A stretch of DNA of 64,000 nucleotides from an uncultured Cocleimonas sp. (GTDB taxonomy: Bacteria; Pseudomonadota; Gammaproteobacteria; Thiotrichales; Thiotrichaceae), in assembly GCF_947495625.1 (NCBI RefSeq), contig NZ_CANLZW010000020.1, positions 1-64,000 on the forward strand. Direction: 5' to 3'. The position numbers were made by a program, and so were the translations under genes. The notes below the pieces were generated by a model. That model did not search any database. It saw only the letters and a list, made by a program, of their open reading frames with translations, and had not been told where the DNA came from. This document shows, piece by piece, positions 8,447-59,571 of the stretch; positions within the stretch are counted from its first letter, which is position 1, and every line of letters starts with the position of its first letter.

Positions 8447-8523
<77 letters not shown>

Positions 8524-12045: not shown

Positions 12046-12236
12046 CCGGCTAATTTAACAAATCAGTCTTACAGTGTCACAATAAACTTGGAAATCTAAA
12101 CAGAGAAATTAGCATTGATGAAACTATTTATTAAGCTTATGTCTAAAAGATTTATAAAAGCAGTCTAAATTATGTCTACAGGATTGCTTATGGTAGAATC
12201 ATCGCGGCTTTATTATAAAAATTTATGGGGATAAAT

Positions 12237-13391
12237 ATGTTAAAGATTAATGGCTTAATAGCATTAACCACAGTTTCATTGTTTGGGCTTACGGCTTGTG
12301 GTGGTGGCGGAAGTTCCTCTTCCGTTGTTAAAAAGGATGGTGTTTTCAAAGACAGTAACGTGTCTGGTCTATCTTATGTTTCTGGTGGTCAGGATGGCGT
12401 AACAGATTCATCTGGAGGCTTCGTCTACGAAGATGGCGAAGATGTTGCTTTCTCAGTAGGTGTAGTAGCGCTAGGATCGGGTGCTGGTAAAGCGGTAATG
12501 ACACCAGTAGACCTTGTTACAGATGGTACTTTGGCCTCAGCAGAAGTGATCAATAAAGTTCGCTTTTTGATGATGCTTGATAAAGATAATACGCCGAGTA
12601 ACGGCATCGAAATTTCTAAAAAAGTTCAGGCGAAAGCAGCTAGCTGGACAGCAGTAAATTTTGCTGCGGCTGATTTTCCTACGCAAAATGTGAATAATAT
12701 CGTAACTTCCGCTTCGGTTGAGGATGGGGTAGTGCACGAACTGCCTGATGCTTTGGCTGCAGCAACTCACTTAAAGACGACATTACTTTGTGCGAATGCG
12801 GGTGCTTATGTAGGTTCTTACGAAGGTACAGAATCAGGTAATGTTGCATTAGTCGTAAACCCAGTAACGGGTGAGGTAGCAGGTTCTTCTTATAATCCAG
12901 ATAACGAAGTATCGGTTGAAATTAGCAGTACTACGGCGCTTGATTATGATATGGGTTTAGAGTTTGTTAGTGCTGAAGATTCTGCAAAAGCATTTTCCGG
13001 AAAACTGAATTCTACAGAAGACCTATCAGGTACTTGGGAAAATAGCGCGGATACGTCCCAGAAAGGTACATTCTCTGCAGAGAGATTAGGTGGTGAAAGT
13101 GATGCGGTTTATCGTTATACGGTTCCATTTACTGGTGGAGACAAAGGTTTATTTACCTTTGATGTCGACAAATCAAATAATGTGAAGGGTTCTACTTATA
13201 GTGTTTCAACAAATGAAGAAAGTGAAATCACAGGTAAGTTAGTAGATAACAAACTTACTGCAAAATCAGCTGATGGCACTGAAATTGATGGTGTTTTAGA
13301 TGAAGAAACTTTGACCTTGAGCGGAGTCTGGTCGAATGTTACAGATCTGGAGGCAGGTTCTTACGTTGGTGGTGGTTGCCGGCTAAACTAA
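12237..13391 (+). CDS. Putative surface lipoprotein with a GGGGSSSS linker
   Basis: 384 residues from the chosen start. The lipobox is LTAC with GGGGSSSS right after the Cys. The next ~70 residues (GVFKDSNVSGLSYVSGG, DGVTDSSGGFVYEDGE) match a segment common in secreted adhesin-like and lipoprotein sequences of gammaproteobacteria. The C-terminal half looks like a beta-rich barrel or sandwich with repeated G-T-W/S motifs. Function unknown. An ATG lies at 12225, but the one at 12237 follows GGGGATAAAT and gives a normal signal peptide. The first ~20 residues after the Cys resemble the lipoprotein at 43047. Confidence 0.75.
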   Translation: MLKINGLIALTTVSLFGLTACGGGGSSSSVVKKDGVFKDSNVSGLSYVSGGQDGVTDSSGGFVYEDGEDVAFSVGVVALGSGAGKAVMTPVDLVTDGTLASAEVINKVRFLMMLDKDNTPSNGIEISKKVQAKAASWTAVNFAAADFPTQNVNNIVTSASVEDGVVHELPDALAAATHLKTTLLCANAGAYVGSYEGTESGNVALVVNPVTGEVAGSSYNPDNEVSVEISSTTALDYDMGLEFVSAEDSAKAFSGKLNSTEDLSGTWENSADTSQKGTFSAERLGGESDAVYRYTVPFTGGDKGLFTFDVDKSNNVKGSTYSVSTNEESEITGKLVDNKLTAKSADGTEIDGVLDEETLTLSGVWSNVTDLEAGSYVGGGCRLN

Positions 13392-14064: not shown

Positions 14065-14207
14065 AAATAAAAACCCCGAGATAGACTCGGGGTTGAATGT
14101 GGTTACAACATGAAATCATATGATCTCAGGCAGTGTCATCCTCCAAGAAAACACTAAGTAACCTTTCTCCTCGGGTGGTATTTGTGGAGAGCGCACAGTT
14201 TACTATA
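14065..14207 (-). ncRNA. Candidate structured RNA or attenuated leader upstream of mscL
   Basis: The minus strand has a -10-like TATAGT (14207-14202) and ends in a strong terminator: AACCCCGAG, 5-base loop, CTCGGGGTT and a T-rich tail (14094-14067). Between them GGTTAC/GTAACC (14163-14158 with 14106-14101) encloses two hairpins: AGTGT/ACACT and GAGATC-ATAT-GATTTC. An upstream CCCGAG (14175-14170) could pair with the terminator's 3' arm CTCGGG, giving a possible antiterminator. It fits either a free-standing sRNA of ~130 nt or an attenuated mscL leader. I do not recognise a known riboswitch or 6S RNA. The remaining parts of the 13934-14304 gap show nothing else. Confidence 0.5.
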
Positions 14208-58680: not shown

Positions 58681-59571
58681 ATGCTTATGTCTTCTTCGAT
58701 AAAAATTTTTGGCAAAAATCCTCTGCTTTTAACAATACCAGTTTCATTGTTGTTACATGCTGGCTTATACGCAATGGGTTTTAAACCTCCTCAGTTTCCA
58801 GAGTCTAAACCTTCACCTACTTTTGATGTAACCATGGTTATGCCGCAGGATGTGCAAGCACCTGATAAAGCTGACTTTATGGCAAATAGTAATCAACAGG
58901 GTAGTGGCAGTGAAGACGAAAAAAGCCGTTTAAAAAGCCCTTTGGCAGCGCAAGAGGAAAACCTAGAAAACGGTGATGAGATAGTAACGTCAGAAAAAAA
59001 TATCGCCGAAGTTACACCTAAACCTGAGCCACAAGTTTTAACCACGAAAGGTGATACCAATAAATTTATTGAAAAACTTCCAGAAGAACAACCTCAAGAA
59101 GAGCCTGTAAAAACGGTTGTAGATAATTCGGAGCAAACACTAGCCATTGCTAAATTGATGGCAGAGATGAGTCAACAGGAAGAGCGTTTTGCCAAGCGTC
59201 CAAGAATCCATTTCATTGATTCTTTAAGTGCTAAAGGAACGGTTGAAGCAGAATATATTTATACCTGGTCTAAAAAGCTTGAGCGGATAGGTAATATCAA
59301 TTTTCCACAAAAAGCTTTGGATTTAAGTTTAAGTGGTACTTTAATATTAAATACAACGCTTGATCGCGCAGGTAGAGTGGTAGAAATTCAAATATCCGTG
59401 TCTTCAGGTTCAAAAATTCTCGATAACGCTGCTTTGAAAATTGTGAAACTAGCAGCGCCGTATGAACCTTTACCTAAAAAGATTCGTAAAAAATATGACC
59501 GATTAAATATCACCAGAACCATCGTTTTTCATAAGAAAGGCGGTAGTAAAGGCGTATTCTCATCTAACTAA
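58681..59571 (+). CDS. TonB-family energy transducer
   Basis: 296 residues. N-terminal membrane helix LLLTIPVSLLLHAGLYAMGF, a Pro/Glu-rich periplasmic span, and a C-terminal TonB domain (about 195-285: LSGTLILNTTLDRAGRVVEIQISVSSGSKILDNAALKIVKLAAPYEPLP). It corresponds in position to Pseudomonas TonB3, upstream of yqgE. ExbB/ExbD are not adjacent. The start could also be the ATG at 58687. Confidence 0.9.
   Translation: MLMSSSIKIFGKNPLLLTIPVSLLLHAGLYAMGFKPPQFPESKPSPTFDVTMVMPQDVQAPDKADFMANSNQQGSGSEDEKSRLKSPLAAQEENLENGDEIVTSEKNIAEVTPKPEPQVLTTKGDTNKFIEKLPEEQPQEEPVKTVVDNSEQTLAIAKLMAEMSQQEERFAKRPRIHFIDSLSAKGTVEAEYIYTWSKKLERIGNINFPQKALDLSLSGTLILNTTLDRAGRVVEIQISVSSGSKILDNAALKIVKLAAPYEPLPKKIRKKYDRLNITRTIVFHKKGGSKGVFSSN

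Follow-up and report, generated by a model that had tools for sequence, protein, structure and literature searches.

A candidate small RNA gene with an invariant C-rich 5' loop in Cocleimonas and a few other Thiotrichaceae

Genomic context of the RNA-like unit

The window analysed here is a stretch of 64,000 nucleotides from an uncultured Cocleimonas sp. (assembly GCF_947495625.1, contig NZ_CANLZW010000020.1, positions 1 to 64,000), referred to below as the source genome. An RNA-like unit on the minus strand of this stretch lies between a gene for an alpha/beta-hydrolase, possibly a lipase by resemblance only (15141-14305, minus), and mscL (13933-13541, minus; Pfam MscL, 7.5e-38), in the same orientation as both. 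From its fold, its conservation and its profile matches, the unit is read as a small RNA gene of approximately 125 nt, with a predicted start near 14190 and an end near 14066 (minus), which leaves about 132 nt between the RNA 3' end and the start of mscL in the source genome. The mscL gene is treated as a downstream neighbour and is not counted in the function of the RNA. It is preceded by a promoter-like site of its own (13986-13959, minus), taken from a promoter scan whose 19 promoter-like matches stand barely above shuffles (mean 14.6, sd 3.7). A 14-bp terminator-like stem follows mscL (13480-13449, minus) and faces a convergent gene (12225-13391), the protein of which gave no Pfam match.

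Architecture of the RNA

The minus-strand orientation of the RNA is indicated by the T run, which lies 3' of the terminator stem on that strand only. Read in this direction, positions 14065-14207 fold with an energy of -43 kcal/mol (z = -3.85), whereas 200 dinucleotide shuffles averaged -30.0 (sd 3.4) and none of them reached so low a value. The 5'-terminal element is hairpin A (14190-14166, minus), in which the arms UCUCC and GGAGA close a 15-nt loop, ACAAAUACCACCCGA. Helix P2 (GGUUAC/GUAACC, 14163-14158 with 14106-14101, minus) then encloses hairpins B and C, and hairpin B (14155-14132, minus) carries UUGGAGGAU in its loop region. The unit ends in an intrinsic terminator (14094-14065, minus) composed of a 9-bp stem (14094-14072), a 5-nt loop and a U-rich tail. 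A preliminary description of this DNA had named a -10-like box, GGTTAC/GTAACC around two hairpins, a strong terminator and the motif CCCGAG, all of which are found on the minus strand; CCCGAG sits in the loop of hairpin A, a hairpin missing from the earlier list of elements. The claim of a structured RNA with a terminator is likewise borne out, both by the folding energy and by conservation in relatives, which makes the structured element more than a product of chance. A small encoded protein was rejected because no reading frame is common to the nine members, whose longest open reading frames span 2 to 17 codons and differ in sequence.

Sequence reading and comparison place a promoter-like element directly upstream (14225-14197, minus), consisting of TTCACC (14225-14220), a 17-nt spacer and TAAACT (14202-14197), the last of which overlaps another -10-like box, TATAGT. 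In all six Cocleimonas members, exactly 6 nt separate the end of the -10-like hexamer (TAAACT, TAGACT, TACACT or TACAAT) from hairpin A. When the source genome is excluded as a near-duplicate of C. flava, five of five members have a box at the same offset, against none of 5000 mononucleotide shuffles, in a test that ignores relatedness and counts a success whenever all five upstream stretches carry a box at a common offset anywhere between 0 and 59. TTGATA lies 17 nt upstream of the -10-like box in three of these genomes (G001, G005 and G007). In the members of a second genus, g8, the box is found farther upstream, ahead of an extra hairpin. Given the fixed distance of 6 nt, the transcript should begin with hairpin A.

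A near-palindrome, TTGAT-ATAT-ATCAA, overlaps the -35 region in all three g8 members; it is exact in G034 (L021) and one base off in G059 (L028) and G018 (L019). This element resembles an FNR/ANR box; none was seen upstream of the RNA in the Cocleimonas members.

Distribution of the RNA

Nine genomes carry the RNA. Six belong to Cocleimonas, namely the source genome, C. flava DSM 24830 (G003), G001, G007, G005 and G010, and three to g8, namely G018, G034 and G059. A sequence profile of hairpin A gave one strong match in each of these nine among 63 Thiotrichaceae genomes (E from 1.4e-9 to 1.1e-5), corresponding to 6 of 12 Cocleimonas and 3 of 9 g8 genomes, and the next-best match (E = 0.014) falls inside a 645-aa frame. 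At the level of the order, the set again consists of these 63 genomes. When the complete RNA was used as a DNA query, 7 of 57 genomes matched, including the source genome; within the genus, at E up to 0.1, 7 of 12 did, with the match in G004 not accepted. A search for an exact 14-mer hit 9 of 63 genomes and added two g8 members. G005 lacks the exact 14-mer, having CTACC in place of ATACC, and was recovered by the DNA search and the profile. In a class-wide sample of 369 genomes drawn evenly, the source genome was the only one with a match, at 19 first-look candidates scored per genome, a depth at which a weak relative could escape. With nine of 63 family genomes and one of 369 class genomes (the source itself), the RNA family appears to be narrow, as far as a search with a 34-position profile of hairpin A can tell.

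Several further matches were set aside. The 14-mer match in G004 lies inside a 324-aa frame read as thiL, and two weak DNA matches in the same genome (E 0.05) extend over no more than the terminator or a piece of 20 bases. A pattern scan of the genome contigs returned eight loci, seven of which are known carriers; the eighth lies in a reading frame of a Gemmatimonadota genome and was judged a chance occurrence. Among the weak profile matches (55 rows, E 0.01 to 1), ten loci were inspected in addition to those of G004 (L038-L044, L052, L054 and L055), and nine of the ten fall within frames 163 to 826 aa long. L054 is outside frames but does not contain the loop core UACCACCCGAGGA, and L038 is the sole inspected locus with this core, yet lies within a 645-aa frame. 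Inspection by eye revealed no diverged copy of the RNA ahead of TonB (18 loci), after DciA in four further g8 genomes, or after the hydrolase gene in G002, which has the hydrolase and no RNA match. One carrier record, a metagenome-assembled genome labelled Aquificaceae (L028, QOAQ01000063.1), is the same as G059 of the Thiotrichaceae genus g8, and its label looks wrong.

Conservation and covariation

The core of the hairpin A loop, UACCACCCGAGGA, is identical in all nine members. Part of this invariance stems from the way members were found, since most of them came in through hairpin A and members with an altered loop could be missed. The piece matched in the DNA search was hairpin A for G001, G005 and G018, and hairpin A together with the terminator for G007. 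Other routes led only to C. flava, which matched over the whole length, and to G010, where the terminator piece matched first; G034 and G059 were found by the motif. G010 has a shifted hairpin A stem, UCCUC/GAGGA.

The P2 and terminator stems were not used as search queries for membership, and the preliminary description had proposed a search for covariation in relatives; both stems do show compensatory changes. Of their 153 cells, 146 are paired (shuffle mean 130.6) and 21 double changes occur (shuffle mean 7.1). Neither value was reached in any of 2000 trials in which the 3' letters were shuffled, a control that ignores relatedness and offers support, not a probability. Hairpin A was left out of this count because it is nearly invariant, and the counts come from an alignment made by hand, as MAFFT alignments misplace the 5' arm of hairpin B and shift G007 by one base. 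The seven unpaired cells all lie at P2 (four at position 1, one at position 2 and two at position 8), where exchanges include G-C to C-G at position 2, G-C to A-U at position 3 and others involving G-U. The terminator stem pairs in all nine members, with exchanges of C-G to U-A and G-C to A-U, and is followed by a T run in each. All six Cocleimonas members have an identical UUGGAGGAU in hairpin B. The three g8 members lack this sequence, having a plain hairpin in place of hairpin B and an extra hairpin ahead of hairpin A. Identity between the source genome and C. flava is 94.3% for the RNA (116 of 123 columns), compared with 67.8% for the 118 bases upstream of it, 74.3% for the spacer to mscL and 90.5% for mscL itself.

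Gene neighbours across carriers

The gene downstream of the RNA differs among carriers, being mscL in two of nine (the source genome and C. flava), TonB in six and a ligand-gated-channel-like gene in one. TonB follows on the same strand in G007, G005, G010, G018, G059 and G001, where it stands at a contig end, and the downstream gene of G034 encodes solute-binding and ligand-gated-channel domains. In five carriers (G001, G005, G007, G010 and G034) mscL is located on another contig, and it was not found in G018 or in G059, the latter rated only 69% complete; 35 further family genomes contain mscL with no strong profile match to the RNA. On the upstream side, all six Cocleimonas members have the hydrolase gene as neighbour; DciA takes this place in G034 and G059, and the contig of G018 ends there. 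In the source genome the TonB gene (58687-59565, plus) lies about 44 kb from the RNA on the opposite strand, and in C. flava about 42 kb away, again on the other strand, which suggests a rearrangement. TonB was matched in 57 of 63 family genomes, the majority of which gave no strong RNA match. In G001, the sequence that follows the RNA on contig C108 (L003/L027) recurs almost unchanged on C8 (L066) ahead of another copy of TonB, through either a duplication or a mixture of strains in the metagenome-assembled genome.

Comparison with known systems

Rfam release 15, applied to the whole window at the gathering score, returned only a tRNA (8450-8523) and no family on the RNA. On the RNA strand no family emerged at E up to 10 either, the best candidate being anti-hemB with 21.9 bits of the 49.5 required (E 0.0055), a sub-threshold match that rests on the terminator hairpin. 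The earlier view that no recognised riboswitch class fits thus agrees with the lack of any Rfam family match.

Trans-acting sRNAs with C-rich seed loops are known from other bacteria, and include the RNAs with C-rich motifs of the RsaE/FsrA type and the sibling RNAs of Neisseria. The RNA described here resembles them in being a short intergenic gene with a promoter-like box, a single-stranded C-rich hairpin loop and a Rho-independent terminator. It differs from them in its core, which is UACCACCCGAGGA here and of the CCUCC or UCCC type in theirs, and in having no Rfam covariance match. Attenuators and riboswitches, such as the ydaO c-di-AMP class associated with osmotic genes, are similar in that a multibranched RNA is followed by a terminator upstream of a gene on the same strand. 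Unlike them, the present RNA has no fixed downstream gene, and its antiterminator pairing is not conserved.

Alternative explanations

One rival reading is that the mscL leader contains an attenuator or riboswitch acting in cis, with CCCGAG freeing or blocking the terminator in response to an osmotic or ionic cue. Such a switch would fit the shared strand, the short distance to mscL, the gene order common to the source genome and C. flava, and the ability of CCCGAG to pair with the terminator arm of the source genome. To this extent the attenuator-like layout of the preliminary description holds; the pairing is not maintained among relatives, since CCCGAG forms 6/6 pairs with the terminator 3' arm in five of nine members (one with a G-U pair) and only 5/6 in the other four. 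Selection on a switch should preserve these base pairs, whereas here CCCGAG is fixed and the terminator arm varies. The varied neighbours, together with the promoter-like and terminator-like sites belonging to mscL itself, weigh in the same direction, as do the carriers in which mscL lies elsewhere or was not detected and the 35 other genomes that have mscL with no strong match to the RNA. Sensing of osmotic or ionic conditions ahead of mscL is thus not upheld, and an mscL switch is considered highly improbable. Only slightly better placed, and still very unlikely, is a cis-acting TonB leader that was severed from its gene in the lineage of the source genome and C. flava, where it would be decaying or reused. 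It would account for the same-strand TonB gene downstream in most carriers of both genera, but the RNA of the two genomes with a distant TonB is more similar than its flanks and so does not look like a decaying remnant. In addition, G034 has a different downstream gene, and TonB is widespread in family genomes that gave no strong RNA match.

Binding of a protein instead of mRNA pairing, for example as a decoy for a CsrA/Rsm-type regulator through GGA motifs, would agree with the GGAGGAU of hairpin B, identical in all six Cocleimonas members, and with the invariant 5' loop, which also fits protein binding. Known decoys of the CsrA/Rsm type, however, contain many GGA hairpins, and hairpin B is missing in the three g8 members, so that this explanation appears unlikely. 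About equally unlikely is that the RNA founds a new family in which the invariant loop, instead of being an mRNA seed, is recognised by a dedicated protein or small ligand, making it a promoter-bearing sensor or decoy that acts in trans in Thiotrichaceae.

A probable trans-acting small RNA

The comparison of carriers reveals a unit that looks like a transcript: its box keeps a fixed distance, its helices are conserved, its 5' loop is invariant, and no one gene consistently lies downstream of it. The fixed-distance box and the terminator point to a self-contained small RNA gene. Judged from sequence comparison, the RNA is probably an independently transcribed sRNA gene of approximately 125 nt that has a promoter and a terminator to itself, is present in few Thiotrichaceae and acts in trans, for which action through the C-rich 5' loop would be the likeliest mode. 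In such a mechanism, the 5'-terminal hairpin A would protect the transcript, its C-rich loop would act as a seed for base pairing with G-rich segments of target mRNAs, and Hfq would bind at the terminator and its U tail. Matches to Hfq (PF17209) were obtained in the source genome, G018 and G034; none was obtained in the C. flava genome, which carries the RNA and is rated 100% complete, where an assembly gap is possible.

Target sites were sought as 12-mer complements of the loop with at most one mismatch, a search that bears on long, near-exact seeds. Such complements are not enriched in four genomes summed (109, compared with 113 for the reversed pattern), the individual counts being 26 and 27 in the source genome, 30 and 23 in C. 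flava, 32 and 36 in G007, and 21 and 27 in G018, with the RNA gene counted once in each. Ten exact loop matches lie outside the RNA gene: seven deep in sense frames, one antisense and two in a terminator-like hairpin, none of them near the start of an open reading frame of at least 80 aa. This terminator-like hairpin, AAAATACCCG...CCGGGTGGTATTTT (L107 in the source genome, C7:39424; L105 in C. flava, C2:1113589), contains the exact complement of part of the loop.

Literature and significance

All-term literature searches returned nothing joining Cocleimonas with 'small RNA' or Thiotrichaceae with sRNA. Papers joining Thiothrix with 'small RNA' name Thiothrix once each and, judged by their titles, deal with other subjects. 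In PMC10117811, which looked closest among the listed papers that mention both mscL and riboswitches, the passages on MscL describe no RNA control of it.

No small-RNA study of this group of sulfur bacteria emerged from these searches, and the RNA would represent an undescribed small RNA family there. The case also demonstrates that a terminator-bearing RNA beside an attractive gene can be mistaken for the switch of that gene. For the carriers of this RNA, the invariant 5' loop would offer a direct handle on its targets or partners.
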